Below, in pieces: positions 9,685 to 39,964 of a DNA stretch of 39,964 nucleotides. The first letter of the stretch is position 1, and the number at the start of each line of letters is the position of its first letter. The stretch is taken from positions 1-39,964 of IMG/VR virus record IMGVR_UViG_3300033145_002833; one strand, written 5' to 3'. Below the pieces are notes generated by a model. That model was not told the origin of the DNA. It worked only from the letters and a program-made list of their open reading frames with translations, and did no database searches. This DNA comes from a virus. A program made the translations under genes and the position numbers.

Positions 9685-11028
9685 TCATCCCGCTTTCTGG
9701 AACTGGTCCACCACGTCGGGGTCGTCTTCGTCGACCAGGTCCTCGAGCTCGTCTTCCGGGAACCCGGCATCCGGTTCGGGGTCAAGCCCGGCCGTCTCGC
9801 GAAACTCCTGTTTCGTGATGACCAGTTCCGCCCCGCCCGGAATCAAAGCGTTGGCGCCAGTGGCCAGTTTCTGCGCATTCTCTATCTTCTCACTCTGGCT
9901 CGGGGCGGTCACGTCCGGCCACTGGACCTCGTACCCCACAACCTTTGGCAATGCCCCGACCTCCATGAGGCGGTCGATGAGTGGGCGAAGAATGGCCGGC
10001 TCCGCGTGGTTCTCTTGGCGCTCCGCGATGCGCTGATTCCAGTTGCTTTGATCCTGAGTGCTGGCGAGCTCGCCGCGTTCTGACCCGACCAGGATGCGCT
10101 TCGGGATCCCGACCGTCCCCGCGACAAGATCCAGAATGACCTCAACGTTGCCTCTGGGATCGGCGGTCTGCCCGAACAATTCCTTGACGTCGATGCCCTG
10201 GGTTCGGAGTACTTTGCGAAGATCGTGCTGGAATTCGTCCAGTTCGTCGCGGAGATCGTCGACCTCATCATCCGACATGTCGGCACCATCTCGAACGTCC
10301 AGGTGCATTCGGCGCGTCGCTGCCAGCCAGAACATCTCAGAGGACCCGCCTACAACCTTGATGAGATCCTGCATTTTGTTGAACACAGGTTCCAGCCGAG
10401 GGCACCCGAATACGTCGTCCTCGAGCGTGTCTTCGGCAATGTGGATAATGCGGCTGTGATGCACCTTCTGCGGCTTCGTCTTCCCGTCGAGTTGCCGGAT
10501 CGTCAGTTCGTACGTCTTCGGCAGCCCGAAGCGCTCGCTCGTGGGATTACTCTCGTAGCCCTTGATCGACGCACTCCCCTCGCCGTAGCGAGACAGATAA
10601 ATCAATTCGCCGGTCTGGGCGGGCGCTTCGAGGCCCGCCTCGCCCTTCAGGCCCAGCAAGAGCACAGAGTATTTCCCTATTCCCGCCAGCCGGTCCGCCT
10701 TCTGGAGGATATGGAAAATGCCGAGTTTCTCGTTGAGAGCCTTCCACGCCTTCTCAAACTCGGTTTCATTCTCATCGTTCTTGTCCTCGCGAATCTCGGG
10801 AGGCTTCCGCCAGGTGGCCGCCGGGAAGGCCGTCACGATCCGCTTCGCGATGTCGCCGTAGCGGTAGAGGCTCAGGAAGTCCAGGTACTTCGGCTCCTTC
10901 TTGTAGCCAAGGGCGGTGAAAAGATCCCGGTCGCCGCCAAAGGTCTGGCCGGCCCGGGTGGCCAACAACATGCGGTCTGCCAGGGCTGACAGGGTCGCTA
11001 TGAATTGCTTTGTTCTCTGCTCTTCCAT
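9685..11028 (-). CDS. Portal protein, DUF1073-type
   Basis: This 447-residue protein overlaps the terminase stop by one base. Recognisable elements are YRYGDIAKRIVTAFPAATWR near the N-terminus, ADRLAGIGKYSVLLLGL, HHSRIIHIAEDTLEDDVFG, and the hallmark GIPKRILVGSERGELASTQDQ with downstream NWNQRIAERQ. It would form the dodecameric ring through which DNA enters. Databases sometimes name this portal family after the anti-CBASS protein Acb1; here the full-length portal architecture and context argue for a portal, not a defence inhibitor. The C-terminus is very acidic. Confidence 0.9.
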   Translation of the reverse strand: MEEQRTKQFIATLSALADRMLLATRAGQTFGGDRDLFTALGYKKEPKYLDFLSLYRYGDIAKRIVTAFPAATWRKPPEIREDKNDENETEFEKAWKALNEKLGIFHILQKADRLAGIGKYSVLLLGLKGEAGLEAPAQTGELIYLSRYGEGSASIKGYESNPTSERFGLPKTYELTIRQLDGKTKPQKVHHSRIIHIAEDTLEDDVFGCPRLEPVFNKMQDLIKVVGGSSEMFWLAATRRMHLDVRDGADMSDDEVDDLRDELDEFQHDLRKVLRTQGIDVKELFGQTADPRGNVEVILDLVAGTVGIPKRILVGSERGELASTQDQSNWNQRIAERQENHAEPAILRPLIDRLMEVGALPKVVGYEVQWPDVTAPSQSEKIENAQKLATGANALIPGGAELVITKQEFRETAGLDPEPDAGFPEDELEDLVDEDDPDVVDQFQKAG

Positions 11029-12485
11029 TATCGTCGCCTTCCCCAGGCCCCCGCCCGGCTTGATGCCACAAGTTTCGAGTATCCGCCGCTCACGGCGTCG
11101 ATCTGGTCTTTCTTGGCGCCGGCCGGAAAGGTTTCGGCCTCTCGCAGGAACTCCTCATTCCATGGCCCCTTTACGAGTTTCACGTTGCCCGCTTCCGCCA
11201 TCGCTGCCACAGGCTCGGCGCGGACTTCCTTTGGCCCTGTCGGGCGGTCGCCGCGGACGGTGTAGCCGAGAAGAACGACTCTCACATAGCGGTCAATGAC
11301 AGCCTTGCCAGAGGAACCCGGTTCCTGCTCGATCCAAATATGGACTTGATGGCCGTCCAGTTCGGCCGTCTGGCCGAGTAGGTCCTCAACGCCCTTCGCC
11401 TCAGACTGGGTGCTTGCCATGTCGCAGATATAGAGTGTCCCGTCCTTGAGGCAGAGAGACGGCCCTCGAGTCCATGAGGGGTTGTAGTCTTTCCGCAAAG
11501 CCGTGCCCGCGAGATCCCAGTAACGGATCTTCTTTGCCTTGACCGGGGCAGCACTAACGATCTCGAACCACTCGCGTTTGAACATGCCGCCGCCCCGGGG
11601 CGCAGGCCGCTGCTGCAGTTGGCCAGCGGCGCCGTACGTCCCGAGTTCCTGCTTCATCGTGGCGATGTCGCCTCTGTCGAAGCGGCGCTCCCAGAGCGGC
11701 TCGCCCTCTTCCTTGCGGGGATCCTCGAAGGGAAGGGTCGTCACACACTTACGCTTTGGCTCGAATTCCATCGGGAGCATCAGATGCGTCCAGTTGTCGC
11801 CTTCCCTTTCGAGAATATGGCCTGTCATATCCCGTTCGTGAAGTCGCTGCATGACCCCGATCTTGTGGTCCTTCTTGCGGTCATTGATGCGGGTCGACAT
11901 CGTCTCATCCCACCAGAGAAGGGCGGATTCCCTCTGGGTGTCCGAGATGGCCTGCTTTACGTTGTGAGGGTCATCGAAGACCACGAAGTTGCCGCCCTCG
12001 CCCGTGGCGCTCCCGTCAATCGACGTTGCGAGGCGATAGCCCGTCTTGCTGTTCTCGAAACGAAGTTTCTCGTTCTGGTCAGTCGTGAGGCTGTAACGAT
12101 CCCCCCAGTTTCGCTGATACCAGGGAGACTCGATGATTCGCCGGCACTTGACGGAGTCGCGCTTGCTCAGGCTTTGCGCGTAGGAAGAGAATAGCCACCG
12201 GCTCTCCGGCCAGTCGATCCAGACCCACGTCGGGAAGAAGACGCCGACGATCAGACTCTTCATGCAGCGGGGCGGGATATTGATGAGGAGGTTTTGGATC
12301 TCGCCGCGGGTTACGGCTTCGAGATGGTCGCAGATGGCGTCTATATGCCAGTTGGGGACGAACTCTGTGCCGGGCTCGACGACGCGCCAGGCTTCCTCAA
12401 CGTAGTAGCGGAACGACCGACGCGCCAGTTCGGCCTTGACCTCTTCGAGGTCGACATAGAGGTCAGGAAGAATCGCCGTTGCCAT
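11028..12485 (-). CDS. terL: Terminase large subunit
   Basis: The packaging motor ATPase and nuclease, 485 residues. Walker A-like segment INIPPRCMKSLIV (about 68-80), Walker B NFVVFDDP (about 166-173), coupling-type motif near STRINDRKKDHKIGVMQRLHE, and the RNase H-like nuclease with RYWDLAGT (about 330), IWIEQEPGSSGK and KKDQIDAVSG. Walker A has the deviant PPRCMKS form common in this group. It overlaps the small subunit by 23 bases. Confidence 0.95.
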   Translation of the reverse strand: MATAILPDLYVDLEEVKAELARRSFRYYVEEAWRVVEPGTEFVPNWHIDAICDHLEAVTRGEIQNLLINIPPRCMKSLIVGVFFPTWVWIDWPESRWLFSSYAQSLSKRDSVKCRRIIESPWYQRNWGDRYSLTTDQNEKLRFENSKTGYRLATSIDGSATGEGGNFVVFDDPHNVKQAISDTQRESALLWWDETMSTRINDRKKDHKIGVMQRLHERDMTGHILEREGDNWTHLMLPMEFEPKRKCVTTLPFEDPRKEEGEPLWERRFDRGDIATMKQELGTYGAAGQLQQRPAPRGGGMFKREWFEIVSAAPVKAKKIRYWDLAGTALRKDYNPSWTRGPSLCLKDGTLYICDMASTQSEAKGVEDLLGQTAELDGHQVHIWIEQEPGSSGKAVIDRYVRVVLLGYTVRGDRPTGPKEVRAEPVAAMAEAGNVKLVKGPWNEEFLREAETFPAGAKKDQIDAVSGGYSKLVASSRAGAWGRRR

Positions 12486-12903
12486 CTGCTGCCTTCACGA
12501 GAGCATCAATTGTTTCCGTCGGGAGTTTGGACAAGTCTATCCGGTGCCTCTGTTCTACATCTCCCGAGAGTATCGTCCGGTCAAGGAAAAGTCCTTGAGA
12601 CCGGGCGAGGAGTTCTGAGGCCTTGAGGCAGTCGCTATCCTTGTCGGCCTTCTCCATCTTTGCGGTCCAAAACTTCTGCAGTTCTTGGCGGCCAGCGATG
12701 GCTTTTTCGTTGTCGCCCTCCCCGCGGGAACCGATCCGCTTCCGAATCTCATCATGTTTCAGCATCCGATGTCCGGCCATACCCGGGTTAGCGTAGCCCG
12801 CCTCTTTGGCCGCGGCCGTCGCGTTCCCAGCATACGCCAGGATGAATATCTGCTGCTGTGCGTTGGGTTTCCAGGAGTGCCCGTTGTTGCCGCTGTTGCC
12901 CAT
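12463..12903 (-). CDS. terS: Terminase small subunit
   Basis: Binds the packaging site and brings it to the large subunit. The start at 12903 (MGNSGNNGHSWK) follows AAGGGGGTGAC, giving 146 residues; the open frame upstream is a non-coding extension into the divergent region. The N-terminal DNA-binding region has QQIFILAYAGNATAAAKEAGY, then GHRMLKHDEIRKRI, the typical Terminase_2 helix-turn-helix. A helical middle and an LPTETIDALVKAA tail follow. It is the first gene of the leftward late operon. Confidence 0.88.
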   Translation of the reverse strand: MGNSGNNGHSWKPNAQQQIFILAYAGNATAAAKEAGYANPGMAGHRMLKHDEIRKRIGSRGEGDNEKAIAGRQELQKFWTAKMEKADKDSDCLKASELLARSQGLFLDRTILSGDVEQRHRIDLSKLPTETIDALVKAADGNGDSS

Positions 12904-12933
12904 GGCGTCACCCCCTTGGGGGACATAGTCTAC

Positions 12934-12962
12934 GGGTAGCAAGGCGGGGGCGGGGCTGTCAA
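12934..12962 (-). promoter_or_regulatory. Candidate late promoter upstream of terminase
   Basis: Minus strand TTGACA at 12962-12957 is a perfect sigma70 -35 box. The best -10 at 17-18 bp spacing (CTACCC/TACCCG) is poor, so activation by a phage or host factor may be needed. Location fits transcription of the whole late operon. Confidence 0.35.
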
Positions 12963-13026
12963 CAAGAAAAAGGGTTGCACGTGAAACGGTGTTCGTGGAG
13001 GGTGGGGGTTGAGGGGGAACCTCACA

Positions 13027-13887
13027 ATGCAAGCACAGCGCGCAACCTTCGTTCGGGAGATGAACTCTCTTCTCCGCCAGGAACTGGACAATCGGAATCT
13101 GTCCGCGCCTATGGAATTCAAGAACCCGCCCCAATTGCACGCAGCCCTTGCGTGGTTCGGGACAGCGATCTCGGTCATCGAATTGGGATGGGGAGAGGCG
13201 GAGCATCTGGCGCAGACGCGCAACTTCTTCGGGATCAAGCCATACGGCGAACAGGAGCATATCGGGCCGATTCGCGTCTTCGAGAGCCAGCTAGCGAGCG
13301 TGAAGTCTTTCGTCTACCTGTTGACGCGGTCGAGCAACTACGCCGAGCCGCGGGAGTGGTTTATGCTCGCTACCAATCCACGGGAACGCCTTCTCGACTA
13401 CGCAGGCGCCGCTTCTACAATTCGAGGTTTCGCCCGGCGCTTCCTCGCCATCTACTGCCCGGAGAACGAGAACTACCCGAGCCTGGCGCAGACGATCCTT
13501 CGGGAGATCGAACCGGTTTGCTTCGAGGAGACGACGGCGTTGCTAGACGATAGACCGGAGCCGCGTACGCGAGAGCAACTCAAGGCCGTCGTGGAGATGG
13601 TCGAGGAAGCGTGGACGCCGGACGCCGTGAGCGCCCACAACAACGCGGATCCACATTTCGACGGAAACGCGCCGGACCCTACGCCGGCGGGAGAGGAGAC
13701 GGAGACAATGACCAGACTCAGAATCAAGAAGTCGTGGTGGAGACGAAAGACGACCTGGGCCGGACTCGCCATGATCGGGACCGGCGTCGGCCGCGGGGTC
13801 GCCGGGGACATCGCCGGCGCCATCCAGACCGGTATCTTGGGCCTCGGTATGATCTTCGGCCGTGAGGCCATCGAGAGCCTGAAGTAG
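13027..13887 (+). CDS. Glucosaminidase-type endolysin fused to holin-like membrane tail
   Basis: This 286-residue protein starts at ATG 13027 behind GAGGGGGAAC. Residues about 33-190 look like the endo-beta-N-acetylglucosaminidase/FlgJ-like fold. The stretch ISVIELGWGEAEHLA gives the catalytic-type Glu52, RNFFGIKPYG is the typical asparagine-phenylalanine-glycine-isoleucine motif, and IRVFESQLASVKSF with RSSNYAEP follow. A proline-rich acidic linker leads to about 59 residues with a basic start (RLRIKKSWWRRK) and two short hydrophobic stretches. That tail resembles a small holin. The gene is divergent from the terminase and stands alone, so it is probably the main lysis gene. Confidence 0.7.
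   Translation: MQAQRATFVREMNSLLRQELDNRNLSAPMEFKNPPQLHAALAWFGTAISVIELGWGEAEHLAQTRNFFGIKPYGEQEHIGPIRVFESQLASVKSFVYLLTRSSNYAEPREWFMLATNPRERLLDYAGAASTIRGFARRFLAIYCPENENYPSLAQTILREIEPVCFEETTALLDDRPEPRTREQLKAVVEMVEEAWTPDAVSAHNNADPHFDGNAPDPTPAGEETETMTRLRIKKSWWRRKTTWAGLAMIGTGVGRGVAGDIAGAIQTGILGLGMIFGREAIESLK
13708..13887 (+). CDS. Possible separately translated holin (internal start of endolysin gene)
   Basis: An in-frame ATG at 13708 is preceded by AGGAG at 13694-13698, nine bases away, inside a purine-rich tract. Translation from it would give 59 residues: MTRLRIKKSWWRRK, then a hydrophobic segment (TWAGLAMIGTGVG), a small turn (RGVAGDIAG) and a second hydrophobic segment (AIQTGILGLGMIFG) with a short polar end. 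Size and layout fit a small two-segment holin. Whether the internal start is used cannot be told from sequence alone. Confidence 0.5.
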   Translation: MTRLRIKKSWWRRKTTWAGLAMIGTGVGRGVAGDIAGAIQTGILGLGMIFGREAIESLK

Positions 13888-13958: not shown

Positions 13959-13987
13959 GAGCGGCCCGTCCCCGTGTCGGGCCGCTC
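13959..13987. terminator. Strong hairpin after the lysis gene
   Basis: A perfect 10-bp stem, GAGCGGCCCG with CGGGCCGCTC, encloses a 9-base loop. The plus side lacks a T run, while the minus side is followed by CTGGTTTT. It may stop leftward transcripts leaving the control region, or weakly end the lysis transcript. Confidence 0.5.
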
Positions 13988-14061: not shown

Positions 14062-14191
14062 GTGACGCCTCGGTGACGCTCTGGTGACGGTGTCGGTGAC
14101 GGTCGGGCGGATGCGCGTTTCGCCCTGTGTTGACGGGCTCTGAGCGTGTGTGCGTCCGTCACGTCACGCCCGCGTCACATAGGCGGTGACG
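14062..14191. repeat. Phased array of eight GTGACG hexamers (candidate origin iterons or operators)
   Basis: Forward copies begin at 14062, 14073, 14084, 14096 and 14186. Reverse copies (CGTCAC) begin at 14157, 14162 and 14173. Spacings of 11, 11 and 12 bp in the first group and 11 bp in the reverse group put the sites on nearly the same face of the helix. A near match (TTGACGG) sits at 14130. The two groups face each other across about 55 bp. No gene covers this region convincingly. The pattern suits binding of a multimeric protein, as at a replication origin or a regulatory site. Confidence 0.7.
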
Positions 14192-14200
14192 CTTTTTCTC

Positions 14201-14224
14201 TTAGCATCTTAGCATCTTAGCATC
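14201..14224. repeat. Three tandem TTAGCATC octamers
   Basis: Three perfect copies occur in direct tandem, followed by the partial unit TTCATC. They are next to a T run (14193-14197) and are less GC-rich than the surroundings, as in DNA-unwinding elements. They lie between the GTGACG array and the promoter pair. Confidence 0.75.
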
Positions 14225-14241
14225 TTCATCAAGTGGGCTTG

Positions 14242-14283: not shown

Positions 14284-14312
14284 TTGACAAGCGCGGTCTG
14301 GTCGGCTATGGT
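14284..14312 (+). promoter_or_regulatory. Sigma70-type early promoter
   Basis: TTGACA at 14284-14289 and TATGGT at 14307-14312 are separated by exactly 17 bp. Transcription would start near 14319 and read into the early gene block. This is the best promoter match seen in the window. Confidence 0.75.
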
Positions 14313-15260: not shown

Positions 15261-15494
15261 ATGGACGCGAAGACGATTGTACGCGGCCGGAAACGCCTAA
15301 GAGACCTCGACGCGACTAACGAGCCGCGAGAACAGCCTCACTTGAGGCGGCTCGTCGAGATGTGGTTGTGGGATAATCGCGACGGCCTATTGGCCGCCGC
15401 CGACCGCGTCTCCGTCCTCGAGCTGGAGAACAGCAACCTGACGGACTTGGACGGGTTCCTCGACAAGCACAATCCGGAGAGGGTGGGGCGATGA
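15261..15494 (+). CDS. Small hypothetical protein
   Basis: This 77-residue protein has ATG 15261 directly behind GGGGAGAGCG. It is charged and mostly helical: RGRKRLRDLDATNEPREQ, then HLRRLVEMWLWDNRDGLLAAADRVSVLELEN. The stop overlaps the next start (ATGA), so the two are translationally coupled. I do not recognise the family. No metal site, membrane segment or catalytic motif is seen. Confidence 0.6.
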   Translation: MDAKTIVRGRKRLRDLDATNEPREQPHLRRLVEMWLWDNRDGLLAAADRVSVLELENSNLTDLDGFLDKHNPERVGR

Positions 15495-15991
15495 CGCACA
15501 ACAACGCAGACTTCTTTGGCGATGACATTGTCGACCCGGCCCAGCCGCCCGAAGGTTTAGCCGAACGGCGAAGGCGGATCGCCGCTGCACTCGATCCGCA
15601 AGGACCGCCGATCAAGTTCCTCAAGGCCGACCGGGATATTCGGATGGAGGAGCTCGGCATTGGCTCAGAGGATCTGGTAAACGACATTTCGATACACGAC
15701 GAAAGGCAGGCAAGACGAATGGCAGAAAAATGCATGGTCCACACGGTCGCAGAAGTCGCGGCGAAGATCGGGAAGAGTCAAGACTACATCCGCCGGCTGA
15801 TGCAGAGTAGGGCTGGGAAGCCTGCGCAATGGCAGGGGCTCAGGATCGGCCGGGTCATCACGTTCACGGATGCGGACCTGGTGGCGAACCTCGGCCAAGA
15901 AGCCTTCGACTCGATCTTCCTGCAGAAGCAGCGGAACCCCGCGCAGAGCCCCGATAAAGCGGCCGCGGATGAAGTCGACCCGGCACAGTAA
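15491..15991 (+). CDS. Helix-turn-helix DNA-binding protein
   Basis: This 166-residue protein has a helix-turn-helix in its second half. HTVAEVAAKIGKSQDYIRRL is followed by WQGLRIGRVITFTDADL, the usual excisionase-like layout (two helices, a wing ending in a polar turn, then a closing helix). The N-terminal half is polar and proline-rich (PAQPPEGLAERRRRIAAALDP). Coupled by ATGA to the preceding gene and just upstream of the replication initiator, it is a candidate regulator or origin-binding protein. The target is unknown. Confidence 0.65.
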   Translation: MTHNNADFFGDDIVDPAQPPEGLAERRRRIAAALDPQGPPIKFLKADRDIRMEELGIGSEDLVNDISIHDERQARRMAEKCMVHTVAEVAAKIGKSQDYIRRLMQSRAGKPAQWQGLRIGRVITFTDADLVANLGQEAFDSIFLQKQRNPAQSPDKAAADEVDPAQ

Positions 15992-16011: not shown

Positions 16012-16890
16012 ATGCACCGTTTCCCGTGGATGAAGTGGTTTGTCTCCGATTGGAAGAAGGACGACTGTGTCCGGAAGGCGGACATGCTCACGAAGGGGAC
16101 ATGGCGAGAGTTGCTGGACGACATGCACCTGGCAGAGGAGCGAGACCCATGCGGCGAGGCTTGCTACAGCGCGATAGGGACGGTCGAGCAGCTGGCCCGG
16201 TCCGTCGGCATCCTGCCGGCCGAGATGGCTCTGGTGGTCCTGGATCTGGGCCGCCTCGGCATCGCGGAAGTCTCGATCGCTGGCGCAGTGGTTCCGGATC
16301 CGGCAGGGTCCAGGGCGCAGGCCGCACGCGAGATCGAGACGTGCGACGCCGAGGTGACGATCATCAACCGGCGCCGCTTGCGAGAGTTCCGGGCCAGGGC
16401 GGCGAGCAGGGCGCGGAGCGAGAAGTCGCGAGCCCGGCACAAGGGCGGCGGGGATCCGCCCGAGAAGCCTGCCGCGCCACCGGCCCCCGTCTCTCACCAG
16501 ACAGAATTACTCCCGCCGCCCGGGCCGGCCGCCAAGCCCGAGGACTCCGAGGACGTCAAGGAAGTGCTCGAGCACTGGCGCAAGGTCTTCGGCCGCGACG
16601 CTTCCTTCTCTCGGGCGAAGCACTGGATCGCCGCGAGGCTCGGGCTCAAGAAACTGGCGACGACGGATCGAGACAAGCGATTCGCGCGGTACAGCAAGGC
16701 TGACCTGCTTCGCTCGATAGACCTCTGGGCGGCAGCGAAGAAGAAGAAGCGGTCGACCTACGACTACCATCTCGGCAACTTTTTCAATGAGACCAGCGCC
16801 TACTTCGAGCACTACCTGGAAGAGGCGAACGAAAGGGGCGACACCGATGACACAGAAACCGGACAAGGCGACGACTACTCAGAATTTTGA
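16012..16890 (+). CDS. Replication initiator, DUF1376-like N-terminal domain
   Basis: This 292-residue protein starts behind GAGGGACG. Residues 1-145 follow the DUF1376/phage replisome organiser pattern. Examples are KWFVSDWKKDDCVRKADML, GTWRELLDDMHLAEERDPCG, a winged-helix-like VEQLARSVGILP, and the final NRRRLREFRARAASRARSEK. A proline-rich linker (150-180) follows. The C-terminal part (EDVKEVLEHWRKVFGRDAS to STYDYHLGNFF) resembles the second domain of such initiators. It is encoded upstream of the DnaC-like loader, so it probably recruits the host helicase to the origin. Confidence 0.72.
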   Translation: MHRFPWMKWFVSDWKKDDCVRKADMLTKGTWRELLDDMHLAEERDPCGEACYSAIGTVEQLARSVGILPAEMALVVLDLGRLGIAEVSIAGAVVPDPAGSRAQAAREIETCDAEVTIINRRRLREFRARAASRARSEKSRARHKGGGDPPEKPAAPPAPVSHQTELLPPPGPAAKPEDSEDVKEVLEHWRKVFGRDASFSRAKHWIAARLGLKKLATTDRDKRFARYSKADLLRSIDLWAAAKKKKRSTYDYHLGNFFNETSAYFEHYLEEANERGDTDDTETGQGDDYSEF

Positions 16891-22212: not shown

Positions 22213-22901
22213 GAGAGTTGTCCCTCTTCTCCGGCGCGGGCGGCGGGCTGCTCGCAACCAAACACCTTCTCGGAATGGAAACGATAGGCTATGTCGAATT
22301 CGAGCCGTACTGCCAGCAAGTCTTGCGCCAGCGAATCAAAGACGGGTTCCTCGATCAAGCCCCAATCTTCGGGGACGTTCGCGAGTTCATCCAGTCCGGT
22401 GCCGCTGCGGAATATCGAGGATTTGCGGACGTGGTTAGCGGTGGGTTTCCCTGCACGCCGTTTTCCGTCGCCGGCAAGCAACTCGGAGCCAACGACCCCC
22501 GGAATATGTGGCCTCCCACTGTTGCCGTCATTCGTGCGGTACGACCTCGATTCGCATTCCTGGAAAACGTCCCAGGGCTCTCTGCTACCGAGCGTCTTAC
22601 TCTATACGGAGCCCTTGAGGAAGGCCGAATTTATACGCTCGAAGAGTGGGAAGCAATCCGTCCAATTATTGAGCGTCAAATTGCCCTACCATCCTACTTC
22701 GGACGAGTTCTTGGAGACCTGGCCGAAGCGGGGTACGATGCGGAGTGGTGCGTGCTGGGAGCAAGCGACGTGGGCGCCGCCCACCGGCGCAAGCGGCTCT
22801 GGATTGTGGCGCACGCCGTCGGCACAGATAATCGGCGCGAAAACGTCGGTCAAGAAGATCTCGGGCCGGACGCCGAGCGACCCGCAGGTGGGACTCGCTG
22901 A
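22209..22901 (+). CDS. Cytosine-C5 DNA methyltransferase, N-terminal catalytic part
   Basis: Starts with GTG in the stop of the nuclease gene. It holds motif I LFSGAGGGLLA (6-16), motif IV VSGGFPCTPFS with catalytic Cys82, motif VI FLENVPG (117-123), and a motif VIII-like HRRKRLWIVAHA (about 192-203). Beyond that the frame codes 24 residues with ordinary third-position bases and stops at 22901. The rest of the enzyme, with motif X, is in the +1 frame from about 22801. The gene is therefore split. Likely a methylase that protects the phage DNA, now possibly inactive. Confidence 0.75.
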   Translation: MRELSLFSGAGGGLLATKHLLGMETIGYVEFEPYCQQVLRQRIKDGFLDQAPIFGDVREFIQSGAAAEYRGFADVVSGGFPCTPFSVAGKQLGANDPRNMWPPTVAVIRAVRPRFAFLENVPGLSATERLTLYGALEEGRIYTLEEWEAIRPIIERQIALPSYFGRVLGDLAEAGYDAEWCVLGASDVGAAHRRKRLWIVAHAVGTDNRRENVGQEDLGPDAERPAGGTR

Positions 22902-23775
22902 CCAGGTGGCGGCGGGGTTTCGGGCAACCTGGCCCACGCCATCAACGATGGACGCAGCGGGCTTCTGCGGGAAACCGGACAAGGGGAGGACGGGGCCCAC
23001 CTCCGGCCGCACGTTGACGGGCAAGGCTCTTGAGAAGGAGGGCCGGGGCTCACACGCGATGATGTGGCCGACCCCCAATAGCGGCGACGGATACCGAGGG
23101 GCGCGCAGCGGGCCAGACGGAAAGAGAGGGCTCTTGTTGACGGATTGCGTCAAGGGCGGGAGACCGATGTGGCCGACCCCGACGCAACACGGGAACAACA
23201 ACCGGGCTGGCCTGTCTCCGAACTCTGGCGACGGGCTCGCGACAGCCGTGAAGCGCGGGAGAACGAAGTGGCCCACGCCCAATGCCGGGGACGGAACCCG
23301 AGGAGCAAACCAGCACGACGGACGCCGCGGATTGAAACTGACGGACTGCGTCGGGGAACAAGCCCCAATGTGGCCCACCCCCCGCGCGATCTACGGCGAG
23401 CACCCCGGCATGACCGACCCGGCGCACCTGACGGGGGCGGCAATTGCCCGGTCTGCGGCCACGGAAGAGAAGAGTGTGAATTCTGGGGAGACGAGTGCGC
23501 CGGCGGAGAACTCCGGGAAGGGCCAGTTGAATCCTGACTGGGTAGAATTTCTTATGAACTGGCCGATTCTCTGGACCAGCCTCGACCCCCTCACCGAACT
23601 GACTTGGCTCGACTGGAGCATTGACCCGGCCGATGATCCAGAGAACCCCATCCCCCGAGTCGCCACCGGCGTCAAGAACCGAGTCGCACGCCTCAAGGCG
23701 CTGGGCAACGGCCAGGTCCCGGCCTGCGCCGCAGCAGCATGGCGCATCCTGACGGAAGGAATATACGATGCCTGA
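22801..23775 (+). pseudogene. Cytosine-C5 methyltransferase, C-terminal part in the +1 frame
   Basis: This open frame continues the methyltransferase with strongly GC-rich third positions, showing it is the coding frame from about 22801 onward. It contains a series of tryptophan-x-threonine-proline motifs: WRTPSA, WPTPST, WPTPNS, WPTPTQ, WPTPNA and WPTPRA, with interleaved SGDG and LTDCV elements. Motif X-like RLKALGNGQVPACAAAAWRI closes it. There is no strong own start; an ATG near 22949 is a weak candidate. It is either a broken gene, an assembly error or a frameshift-expressed enzyme. The frame stays open upstream only by chance. Confidence 0.65.
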
Positions 23776-23950: not shown

Positions 23951-24288
23951 CAACCGAGATCGAAAAACTCTATCAGGCCGTCGACGACTTCGCCCAAGCG
24001 ATGAAGGCCCGGCTCGCCCAGAAGCATGAGCAGGGCTGGAGCGGATGGGATAACGAGGAGTTCGTTTCGTCGGCTTCGCTCCGGCAAAAACTGTTAAAGA
24101 ACATCACGCGGACGGTCCGCGACCGCACAGGCCGGACCCCGCAGGCTGTCGACATGGGAGCAATCAGCATGATCCTCTGGTATCGAGACCAAACACAGGA
24201 AAGGAAACAGAACCATGGCAAAGAAACTGACGGAAGAGACACAGAAGAACATGGGCGGCGAGGGCGCGGGAACAATCCTGCGTCTTGA
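23947..24288 (+). CDS. Small phage protein with conserved QAVD and MILW motifs
   Basis: This 113-residue protein has a helical first 80 residues (ARLAQKHEQGWSGWDNEEFV, then LRQKLLKNI and QAVDMGAISMILWYRDQ). The GWxxWD, QAVD and MILWYR elements recall a common group of small phage proteins often linked to nucleotide-metabolism genes; I cannot name a family safely. The charged tail overlaps the first 74 bases of the next gene, which may be translationally coupled. Confidence 0.6.
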   Translation: MTTEIEKLYQAVDDFAQAMKARLAQKHEQGWSGWDNEEFVSSASLRQKLLKNITRTVRDRTGRTPQAVDMGAISMILWYRDQTQERKQNHGKETDGRDTEEHGRRGRGNNPAS

Positions 24289-25591
24289 GGTCGAGAACCA
24301 CAAGCGCGTCTCGACGGCCGTCATCCAGGCCGGCGGCAAGTCGGTAGTCCTCGGCGGCAAGAACAGCAACGGCAAGAGCAGCGGCGGCTGCGACGCGATC
24401 CTCGCTCTCCTGGCCGGCGCCTCGGCGGTCTGCGACCGGCCCATCCGCGACGGCGCGACAAAGGCCCTCATCGGCGTCGAACTCACCAGCGGGATGAAGA
24501 TCCAGAAGGTCATCACGCAGGGCGGCGTCACGCTCGAAGCCCGTTGGCCCAGCGGCGCGACGGTGAAGAAGGCCCAGACCGTTCTCTCGGAACTGACCGG
24601 CGGGGCGAACTTCGATATCAGCGAGTTCGTCTTCACCGACGGGAAGAAGCGCGTCGAGATGGCGCGCGAGATAGCCGGGCTCGACACTGACGAGATCGAC
24701 GACGCAATCCTCATGGCCTGCGAGGAACGCAAGGACGCCAAGAAGGAGGCGAAGCGTCTGCGGACCGAGGCCCAGGGGATGCCGACGCACCCCGAAGCCC
24801 CCGACGACGAGGTCTCCTCTGCCGCGATCCTCGACCAGATCAAAGAGGCCAGCGCCGCGAACGAAGAGCGTGCTGCAAAGGGCGCGGCCCACGAGACGGC
24901 CGCCGCCGCGGTCAAGAGCCTCGAGGAAAAGATCCAGGAGCACGAAAAGGCGGTCGCCACCCTGAAAGTGAAGATCAAGGCCCGCAAGACGGAACTGACC
25001 GCCGCCAAGGAGAAGGCCGCCGCCAGGAAGGAACGGTACGAGAAGACCGAACAGATCAACGTCTCCAAGTTCCAGACCGAACTCGAGGGCGTGAACGCAA
25101 AGAACAACCAGGTCCGGGCGAACGCGGCGGCCAAGGCGAAGGGGCTCGAAGCGGACGCCGCCGAGGACGCCGTCAACGTGGCCGAGGCGAAAGTCGTCGA
25201 GGTCAGGGCGAAGCGCACGGCCATGGTCGAGGCGGCCAGTTTCCCCGTCGACGGGATGACTATCGAAGACGGAGACGTGGCCCTGGCCGGGATCCCCTTC
25301 GACCAGTTGGGCGAGGCCGAGCGCTATCTGGTCTCGGCGGCGGTCGGGCTACGGGCGATCCCCGAGGGCGGCATCCGAGTCTTACTGATGCGCGTCGGCG
25401 GCGCCCTGGACGAGGAGAACCTGGCCAAGATGCTGGCGTTCGTGGCCGAGCAGGACGCGCAACTCTGGATCGAGGTCCCCCGGACCGACGGGGTCGACAT
25501 CATTTTCGAGGACGGGAAGATCCTCGAGGGCGAGGAAGCCGAAGAGGCGGTGGAGAAGAGCGAGGCGGCGGCCGGCGTCGCCGAGGAATAA
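24215..25591 (+). CDS. SbcC/RecF-like coiled-coil ATPase
   Basis: This 458-residue protein starts behind AGGAAAGGAAACAGAACC. The N-terminal lobe has LRLEVENHKRV and Walker A GGKNSNGKSSG (47-57). Residues about 190-340 form a long coiled coil. The C-terminal lobe has IPFDQLGEAERYLVSAAVG, the place of the signature motif in SbcC-like proteins, and then RVLLMRVGGALDEENL where Walker B should be. The usual acidic Walker B residues are not in their normal place. Such ATPases pair with a nuclease, and the DUF2800 protein is the nearby candidate. Confidence 0.75.
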   Translation: MAKKLTEETQKNMGGEGAGTILRLEVENHKRVSTAVIQAGGKSVVLGGKNSNGKSSGGCDAILALLAGASAVCDRPIRDGATKALIGVELTSGMKIQKVITQGGVTLEARWPSGATVKKAQTVLSELTGGANFDISEFVFTDGKKRVEMAREIAGLDTDEIDDAILMACEERKDAKKEAKRLRTEAQGMPTHPEAPDDEVSSAAILDQIKEASAANEERAAKGAAHETAAAAVKSLEEKIQEHEKAVATLKVKIKARKTELTAAKEKAAARKERYEKTEQINVSKFQTELEGVNAKNNQVRANAAAKAKGLEADAAEDAVNVAEAKVVEVRAKRTAMVEAASFPVDGMTIEDGDVALAGIPFDQLGEAERYLVSAAVGLRAIPEGGIRVLLMRVGGALDEENLAKMLAFVAEQDAQLWIEVPRTDGVDIIFEDGKILEGEEAEEAVEKSEAAAGVAEE

Positions 25592-25889: not shown

Positions 25890-25986
25890 CATGCGACCGG
25901 CCGGGCGGCGAGGGGCAAATCTACAAGCCTCCTCCGGGCGAGAGCCCCTTGCCGTCCGGCCCGACGTAATCAAGAAAGATTCTCGA

Positions 25987-26934
25987 ATGAAGAGCCCCAC
26001 CCATATGCCTCGTCTTCGTGCGCCCTTCCCTTGGTTCGGGGGCAAGTCCCGCGCCGCCCACCTCGTCTGGCCGCGCTTCGGCGACGTCGGCCACTACATA
26101 GAACCATTCGCCGGCAGCCTCGCCGTCCTCTTCGGCCGCCCCCACGCTCCCCGCATCGAGACCATCAACGACAAAGACTGCCACATTGCGAACTTCTGGC
26201 GCGCCGTCCAGGTGGATCCCGAAGCCGTCGCCCAACACGCAGACTGGCCCGTCAACGAAGCCGACCTGTACGCGCGCCATCAGTGGCTTATCGATTACGG
26301 TACCGCACTCGTCGAGAAGATCCAGGAGGACCCGTTGTACTTCGAGCCCAAGGTCGCCGGATGGTGGGTCTGGGGCCTCTGCCAGTGGATAGGCGACGGG
26401 TTCTGCTACAACCACCACCGAAAGCGACCGAACCTCCACAACTACGGTAAGGGGATCCACCAGAAAGACGCCGACCCCAGGGCCTGGTTTCAAGACATAC
26501 AGGAACGCCTCCGCAAGGTCCGCGTCTGCTGTGGCGACTGGACGCGCGTGGTGTCGACCGGCGTCATACTCTACGAGAAGTACTCCCACGGCATCTTCCT
26601 TGACCCTCCCTACTGCGCACCACGCAGTCTGGGCATCTACCGCCACGACAGCCAGAATATCAGCGGCGCGGTGCGCCAGTGGGCCGCCGAGCACGGCACC
26701 AACGCCAACATCCGTATCGCTCTCTGTGGTTTCGAGGGCGAGCACAACACCCTCGAAACGCTCGGATGGACCAAAGTCGTTTGGGATGGCAACACCGGCT
26801 ACGCCAACTCGAGGAAGGCGACTCGGGAGAAAGCCAACCGTAAGAACGAGCGCATCTGGTTCAGCCCCCACTGCCTGCAGACCAAGGTACCGCCGATCCA
26901 GAAGGCAGTGGCGCTGGAAGGACCCGGAGTATGA
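25987..26934 (+). CDS. Dam-type adenine-N6 DNA methyltransferase
   Basis: This 315-residue protein has FPWFGGKSRAA (14-24), HYIEPFAGSLAVLFGRP (about 36-52) as motif I, and IFLDPPYCA (about 203-211) as the catalytic DPPY motif. It ends in KNERIWFSPHC. The order motif X, I, IV is that of the Dam/D12 class. An earlier ATG at 25891, behind AAAGGTGG, would add 32 residues of low-complexity sequence; the start given is the more family-like. It probably modifies phage DNA against host restriction. Recognition sequence not inferable. Confidence 0.85.
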   Translation: MKSPTHMPRLRAPFPWFGGKSRAAHLVWPRFGDVGHYIEPFAGSLAVLFGRPHAPRIETINDKDCHIANFWRAVQVDPEAVAQHADWPVNEADLYARHQWLIDYGTALVEKIQEDPLYFEPKVAGWWVWGLCQWIGDGFCYNHHRKRPNLHNYGKGIHQKDADPRAWFQDIQERLRKVRVCCGDWTRVVSTGVILYEKYSHGIFLDPPYCAPRSLGIYRHDSQNISGAVRQWAAEHGTNANIRIALCGFEGEHNTLETLGWTKVVWDGNTGYANSRKATREKANRKNERIWFSPHCLQTKVPPIQKAVALEGPGV

Positions 26935-29750: not shown

Positions 29751-30326
29751 ATGCCCCAGGAAGAATTCGCCAATGCTCTCGGCGTCACTGTCGCCACTGT
29801 TTCGCGTTGGGAGAACGGGCATTATGAACCGCGCATGAAGCAGATTCGCGCGATGCACGAACTACGCAGAAAGGAAGTGAGCGACATGAGCCACCCGAAG
29901 ACCGACCCCGACAGGCCCGCCCATCCTGTCCCCAACGTGAGAACGTGGCACTTTGGCCTCACCAAGCGCGAGGAGTTCTCGAAGTGCTTCGCCGCGGCCT
30001 TGGTGACCGCGAGCGGTAACGAACCGAATCCCCGGCCATGTCGTGCATCTAAGACGATTACGGACGGGGCGGTCCAACTCGCCGACGCCCTGATCGACGC
30101 CCTGAACGCGGGCAACGAACTGGCCGAGCCGCTTAGCGCCCAGCGGATCCGGACAGCCAGGGCATGGCATGGACAGAGCCAGGTCGAGTTCGCAAAGCGT
30201 TTAGGCCTTGCGCGGCAAAGCATTGCGAACTGGGAATATGGCTCGCGTCAGGTCCCCCGCAAGCATCGCGAGGCGCTCAAGGAAATCATCCGCCAGGCGT
30301 TCGCAGAGATGGGGGCGCAGGCATGA
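29751..30326 (+). CDS. XRE-type regulator with two helix-turn-helix units (5' end irregular)
   Basis: This 191-residue open frame has an N-terminal helix-turn-helix (QEEFANALGVTVATVSRWEN) and a C-terminal one (SQVEFAKRLGLARQSIANWE, preceded by AQRIRTARAWHG). The usual first helix of the N-terminal domain is coded upstream in the same frame (VKAIRIGLQ), but that stretch is reached from ATG 29709 only through an in-frame TGA at 29718. Starting at 29751 leaves helix 1 incomplete. A further start at 29886, with AGAAAGGAAG upstream, would give only the second unit (146 residues). A lytic-control repressor is possible. Confidence 0.6.
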   Translation: MPQEEFANALGVTVATVSRWENGHYEPRMKQIRAMHELRRKEVSDMSHPKTDPDRPAHPVPNVRTWHFGLTKREEFSKCFAAALVTASGNEPNPRPCRASKTITDGAVQLADALIDALNAGNELAEPLSAQRIRTARAWHGQSQVEFAKRLGLARQSIANWEYGSRQVPRKHREALKEIIRQAFAEMGAQA

Positions 30327-39311: not shown

Positions 39312-39964
39312 CGCGGAAGACTCCTTCTCGACAGCCCATACTGAGACCGCATCAGCCGGTCGAGAGGCCCGCCGCGAAGATCGCTCGACACCGTGTCGCG
39401 CACAAAGGCGCGGAGCATTCGCGTCCCGTCCGCGTTGGTAGTCTCTTGCGTTTCGATCTGCTCTCCGCTTTGCCGCTGGTCGATGATCTGGATTACAGCC
39501 GACTCTTTCGAGATTACAGCCGGCCCTTTCTTCCCCGGCACAAGACCAGGTTTCGCCGCCTCGATGCCGCCGCCCGCAGCTGCGCTTTCACGGAATAGCC
39601 CGCCGAGCAACCCGCCGAGCAACCCGCCGATGCCACCGGCGGCCGCCCCCATACCCGCCCCGATCATATTCGAAATAGGTCCGACTAAGGCTGCCTGAAT
39701 TACGATATCGATCAGGTTTTTGGCTATGTTGTCGAGCACGTCGCTCAGTTTCTCGCCCGACATGATAGCGTCCCCGAAGCCGGAAGTGATCGCCGTCCCC
39801 ATCTGATCGGCTACCTTCTGGGCCGCCGTTTGCGCCTTTTCTACCTGCTGTATCTGATTTTCGAGCCGCTTCAGCGCGTCGGTTCTCTGGTCCGCCGAGA
39901 TGACCCCGAGGTCATAGGCCTGGTTCACGAGGGCAATGGCCTCGGCGTGGCGCTCCTCCTCTGT
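39308..39964 (-). CDS. Tail tape measure protein, C-terminal part (begins at left end)
   Basis: This is the end of the 664-residue tape measure protein; bases 39909-39964 repeat the window start. It continues the coiled coil (RTDALKRLENQIQQVEKAQ), then has AITSGFGDAIMSGEKLSDVLDN and IAKNLIDIVIQAALVGPI, a conserved tape-measure C-terminal pattern. A glycine-rich hydrophobic stretch (MIGAGMGAAAGGIGGLLGG) and a tail with QETTNADGTRMLRAFVRDTV follow. The last part is typical of lambda-type tape measures and is sometimes removed on maturation. The stop overlaps the M-like start. Confidence 0.88.
   Translation of the reverse strand, partial: TEEERHAEAIALVNQAYDLGVISADQRTDALKRLENQIQQVEKAQTAAQKVADQMGTAITSGFGDAIMSGEKLSDVLDNIAKNLIDIVIQAALVGPISNMIGAGMGAAAGGIGGLLGGLLGGLFRESAAAGGGIEAAKPGLVPGKKGPAVISKESAVIQIIDQRQSGEQIETQETTNADGTRMLRAFVRDTVSSDLRGGPLDRLMRSQYGLSRRSLPR
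39909..39964. repeat. Terminal direct repeat, right copy (circular overlap)
   Basis: Exact copy of positions 1-56. See the left copy. When joined, the tape measure gene is intact. Confidence 0.93.

Follow-up and report, generated by a model that had tools for sequence, protein, structure and literature searches.

We propose that positions 14062–14232 of this viral genome constitute a theta-type replication origin of the iteron class, in which copies of the hexamer GTGACG would act as the iterons and the product of the gene starting at 16012 is most likely the initiator. We assign this reading a probability of about 0.74. The iteron-type phage origin is a known arrangement; what is unusual here is its location outside the initiator gene and the unusually dense array of sites running in both directions.

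The window (the whole stretch of DNA analysed, 39,964 nucleotides) corresponds to a record typed as a virus contig. Positions 1–56 and 39909–39964 are identical over 56 bp and a 680-residue ORF spans the junction of the ends, so the record represents a complete circle of 39,908 bp. The genome is siphovirus-like. Packaging genes (terminase large subunit, portal and head protease) run leftward from about 13 kb, with the terminase genes at 11028–13260 and the small terminase about 1 kb from the array on the opposite strand; tail gene J is likewise a minus-strand gene. Past the array begins the rightward early operon, which encodes an HTH_17/excisionase-like protein (15491), the 292-residue protein at 16012, RecT and an exonuclease. 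Elsewhere, a single ORF at 29751–30326 encodes a C-terminal Cro/C1-type HTH domain and a truncated N-terminal one. Other genes (22291–23775, 25891–26934 and 24215–25591) comprise two that resemble DNA methyltransferases and one for a conserved phage protein, phrog_1499, whose similarity to SMC proteins is weak. The gene at 13027–13887 on the plus strand matches glucosaminidases weakly, and an in-frame ATG at 13708 precedes its hydrophobic C-terminal part; it is possibly a lysis gene or the fusion of a lysin with a holin. Searches for RNA families and tRNAs returned no match.

The elements of the proposed origin and its surroundings are as follows.

13959–13987, plus strand: perfect 10-bp inverted repeat GAGCGGCCCG/CGGGCCGCTC, downstream of the gene at 13027–13887; possibly a terminator lacking a T-run.
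14062–14101, plus strand: forward group of four GTGACG copies (14062, 14073, 14084 and 14096), putative iterons, at steps of 11, 11 and 12 bp.
14102–14156, no strand assigned: 55-bp centre between the facing groups, 67% GC, with a GCGTGTGTGCG tract.
14157–14178, minus strand: reverse group of three GTGACG copies (14157, 14162 and 14173), at steps of 5 and 11 bp.
14172–14202, plus strand: terminator-like hairpin GCGTCAC-ATAGGCG-GTGACGC followed by TTTTTCTCTT; a pattern match only.
14186–14191, plus strand: eighth GTGACG copy, alone beyond the reverse group, in the 3' arm of the hairpin.
14193–14232, no strand assigned: stretch of 40 bp with the lowest nearest-neighbour stability in the whole genome; candidate DNA unwinding element.
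14199–14226, plus strand: 8-bp tandem repeat TTAGCATC, 3.5 copies.
14284–14312, plus strand: sigma-70-like promoter TTGACA-17-TATGGT directed towards the early operon, 10 of 12 matches, by consensus only.
15491–15991, plus strand: small HTH_17/excisionase-like protein, directly upstream of 16012; alternative candidate binder.
16012–16890, plus strand: replisome-organizer-like protein of 292 residues, candidate initiator (HMM E-value 4.3e-7).

An exact search of the 39,964-nucleotide window located eight copies of GTGACG within 130 bp (14062–14191), as the initial annotation had reported. That annotation described five forward and three reverse copies facing each other across about 55 bp, at steps of 11–13 bp within each group. 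The gap and the three reverse copies stand, but the forward group numbers four, the copy at 14186 being separate, and the regular spacing is restricted to this forward group; the reverse copies at 14157 and 14162 overlap by one base. An extended form, GGTGACGS, is seen in the forward group, and a degenerate copy, TTGACG, lies at 14130 within the centre. The outer spans of the facing copies are both 95 bp (GTGACG at 14084 to CGTCAC ending at 14178, and 14073 to 14167). When any hexamer on either strand was counted in 150 dinucleotide-preserving shuffles of the window, the maximum was 3–5 copies per 130 bp compared with the eight observed, and once the array is masked the next best cluster of any hexamer has four. 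The earlier judgement that the array is denser than chance is thus upheld, as is the statement that no gene explains it, since none of the ORFs in the window covers it.

The candidate unwinding element directly adjoins the array, and the local GC content there falls to a minimum of 35%. Intergenic DNA in any case tends towards lower stability, which reduces the weight that this stretch can carry. The TTAGCATC repeat within it is the only perfect tandem of a 5–9-mer with at least three copies in the genome; a search for the same tract elsewhere recovered one unrelated contig and nothing else. Short repeats beside a melting tract form the classical layout of phage origins such as those of lambda and the Stx phages (PMC7466680). 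In those systems, as in the window, the initiator repeats are short and lie beside an AT-rich tract, and the O-type initiator is encoded in the same early operon (PMC7466680). The lambdoid iterons, however, are longer and lie within the O gene, whereas the sites in the window are hexamers in both orientations placed 1.8 kb upstream of the initiator gene; moreover, the initiator is only distantly related.

Our model of initiation is as follows. The initiator, most likely 16012, would bind the GTGACG iterons cooperatively; the bound complex would then melt the unstable TTAGCATC tract at 14193–14232, and a helicase would be loaded at the melted tract. Since no helicase gene was recognised, the host DnaB is the natural guess for this helicase. 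The sequence itself shows the array and its significance, the unstable tract, the tandem repeat, the circularity, the domain family of 16012 and the link between such arrays and replication genes in other phages; origin activity and the steps of binding by 16012, strand opening and helicase loading are inferred from these. Among the points against this model, the 80 family loci described below lack a comparable GTGACG cluster, 16012 is very divergent, the centre of the array is GC-rich and part of the array resembles a terminator. Nevertheless, we consider the origin reading well supported because the least stable stretch of the genome is adjacent, because the tandem repeat is unique and because GTGACG arrays elsewhere keep the company of replication genes. 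The initial annotation had left the choice between the iterons of an origin and a cooperative operator, and the same three observations favour the former. GC skew, which it had put forward as a check, gives weak guidance: the cumulative GC-skew minimum lies at 11.9 kb and the purine-skew minimum at 12.9 kb, and the measure is too coarse and too confounded by gene direction to pinpoint the array.

Two proteins had been suggested as binders of the array, those encoded at 15491 and 16012. The first residues of 16012 resemble those of two proteins: one from a Sinorhizobium replicon (L342), and Pam1_56 of Pseudanabaena phage Pam1, whose gene adjoins the one for the DNA replicative helicase. An HMM built from these two sequences matches 16012 with an E-value of 4.3e-7 in the window, or 1.3e-5 when all ORFs of the loci then collected are searched. 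Both proteins match phrog_13246, a replisome organizer, while the direct PHROG match of 16012 is weak (E-value 0.088). As judged from these profile comparisons, 16012 carries the N-terminal domain of a replisome-organizer family and is a distant member of it. Using tblastn we found no direct homologue of 16012 in phages or viral contigs, and a sequence search of the PDB gave no match; a structure model predicted from the single sequence had a pLDDT of 51, which is insufficient for searching by fold. Close relatives of the replication module were found neither in phages, at the DNA or protein level, nor in viral or genome contigs.

The protein at 15491 matches phrog_1840 (E-value 1.5e-4), phrog_66 (1.5e-3) and HTH_17 (0.0035). 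In the Sinorhizobium replicon an HTH/excisionase-like gene likewise sits just upstream of the initiator gene, and phrog_66 is common to its product and 15491. Direct comparison of the 15491 and 16012 profiles with initiator proteins selected by motif was not significant. Of the two proposals, 16012 gains from its replisome-organizer-type domain and loses from the absence of the GTGACG word among its relatives, described below; we place it as the likeliest binder at about even odds. The excisionase-like 15491 is possible as a binder and less favoured.

To examine the family we collected 80 viral loci with an initiator domain of the 16012 type, fetched by protein and not by motif. A cluster of at least four GTGACG copies within 2.5 kb occurs in none of the 80, which counts against a link between 16012 and this hexamer. 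The assignment of 16012 as the binder is accordingly weaker than that of the origin, GTGACG not being conserved in its family. The initial annotation had looked to related genomes for the same array. One distant member, L019, does have a GTGACG array, consisting of four copies of GGTGACGGAGAA followed by (TTCATC)n within the initiator gene, a layout closely parallel to that of the window.

Many members of the Pam1_56/L342 family have a short-iteron array and a tandem microrepeat inside the initiator gene. Some hexamer array is found at +200 to +600 of the gene in 33% of cases, compared with about 10% elsewhere, and a tandem 5–9-mer at +250 to +650 in 35 of 73 family genes, compared with 0.025 per 400 bp elsewhere. 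One or the other feature is present in 42 of the 73 and both in 18. This enrichment suggests that the family often has a two-part origin, iterons plus microrepeat, within the gene. The iteron motifs in these genes are different hexamers (CCAGAA, GGATAA, GGTTAA and others). In the window, the two parts lie side by side in the control region, with a different hexamer, outside the candidate initiator gene. The 16012 gene itself has neither an iteron array, its best hexamer count being three, nor a tandem repeat.

We also considered GTGACG arrays in other phages. Scanning viral contigs for three close copies gave at least 120 loci, some of them chance or coding repeats; because some tens of chance matches are estimated for a collection of this size, the three-copy scan is poor evidence, and we placed weight on a mirrored four-copy pattern (two forward copies, 40–70 bp, two reverse copies) and on gene content. 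Many arrays lie inside initiator-looking genes, and PHROG searches agree among the matches listed. We also tallied the PHROG families of 59 ORFs, chosen mostly for their overlap with a GTGACG array; the commonest named families were DnaD-like helicase loader, replication initiation protein, replisome organizer, primosomal protein and DNA primase. A short tandem repeat lies within 150 bp of the array in 10 of 26 independent GTGACG arrays, most of which are in initiator-like genes, compared with 2.1% of control windows; in one of the ten (L056) the tandem overlaps the array itself. Origin words evidently differ from phage to phage: relatives by terminase carry dense arrays of GTCTCA, CGATAC, GGTAAC and ATTACG in short-ORF or intergenic DNA, and of AAGGCTT inside an O-like gene with a DnaA_N domain (L137 1231; L142 5914; L165–L171; L129 1972; L122 4339).

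The mirrored GTGACG pattern is present in at least 120 viral contigs, compared with 13 for TGGACG, the one control hexamer used, which has equal composition and was searched with the same geometry. Among the matches listed, 123 mirrored elements (L202–L316) reduce to 56 distinct ones, mostly 92–100 bp long with a mode of 95 bp, and the centre is less GC-rich than the locus in 51 of these 56. A D5_N/DUF5906 primase-helicase gene adjoins the element in 87 of the 120 loci listed, and the element lies 3' of the D5-cluster ORF in 91 of 96 (median distance 27 bp, again among the matches listed). Named phages that match the D5-type loci include Acinetobacter phage 4316 and Acidithiobacillus phage AcaML1. 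No D5 match was found beside the mirrored TGGACG elements in the 13 contigs (L317–L329), several of which have a GCGCGC centre. The mirrored GTGACG elements often overlap a small gene at its 5' end, the product of this gene appearing RuvC-like by eye, and their centres often contain an alternating CG/CA tract and TATAAG-like words. A partial search of the literature gave no description of a mirrored GTGACG element beside D5-type genes.

This arrangement matches that of the SaPIs, where the iterons of the origin follow immediately after the Rep helicase gene; the SCCmec Cch2 system is related (PMC7581432). Origins served by such self-loading D5-type helicases (Rep and Cch2) have multiple short iterons, as the window does, and the overall span of the phage elements is that of the window, the facing spans of 95 bp falling within their usual range of 92–100 bp. 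The window differs in that its centre is GC-rich and its array is not 3' of a helicase gene. A D5-cluster profile run against a six-frame translation of the complete genome gave no match at E < 10; a D5/SaPI-type mechanism does not therefore apply, and we have ruled it out for this complete circle, which has no recognisable D5 helicase.

The strongest rival to the origin is a cooperative operator, through which the HTH_17 protein at 15491 or the HTH_3 protein at 29751 would control the promoter at 14284 and perhaps leftward transcription. The good promoter-like site begins only 93 bp downstream of the array, HTH proteins are encoded in the genome and the steps of the forward group are close to helical phasing. 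We nevertheless regard an operator as unlikely, since GTGACG arrays elsewhere are found within initiator genes or immediately 3' of primase-helicase genes and not at promoters, and since an operator does not predict an adjacent tandem repeat and the least stable stretch of the genome.

The copies at 14173 and 14186 could instead belong to a rho-independent terminator that would stop rightward transcription coming from the 13027 gene, with the rest of the array being secondary. In a simple scan these copies pair to form an intrinsic-terminator-like hairpin with a 7-bp stem, a 7-nucleotide loop and the T-rich tail TTTTTCTCTT. Only two of the eight copies are accounted for in this way, and the array region as a whole folds no better than shuffled sequences (z = −1.22), which makes a terminator very improbable as the explanation of the array; a terminator at this one pair may coexist with an origin.

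We attach slightly less credence still to a packaging site (cos or pac) read by the small terminase. The terminase genes are close, and in the region homologous to L268, a locus with a GTGACG element, the small terminase gene of Acinetobacter phage 4316 comes after a primase gene. Relatives by large terminase, with up to 57% identity, nevertheless lack GTGACG arrays in the DNA examined, and the constant neighbour across loci is the primase-helicase and not the terminase. Arm-type sites of an attP for a tyrosine integrase are the least credible alternative: an excisionase-like HTH protein is encoded, and the GTGACG array of L249 (4627–4718), which perhaps represents arm-type sites rather than an origin, lies by eye about 125 bp from a tyrosine-integrase-like ORF, but none of those window ORFs that were scanned matched an integrase family.

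The proposed iteron-type origin provides a concrete and testable origin for an uncultured phage, and it suggests a rule for finding others, namely an array of a short word beside a tandem microrepeat in or near the initiator gene. Mirrored GTGACG elements located 3' of D5-type primase-helicases seem to be widespread (at least 120 viral contigs). More speculatively, GTGACG might be a recurrent origin word of unrelated initiator classes, the D5-type helicases and the O/DnaD-like replisome organizers, read through a common recognition domain or a host factor; in the window, the word and its unwinding tract would have left the initiator gene for the control region. We consider this rather doubtful, given that a single control hexamer was tested and that the GTGACG counts are lower bounds. 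If it is true that unrelated initiators read one word, the evolution of origin recognition would become directly testable.
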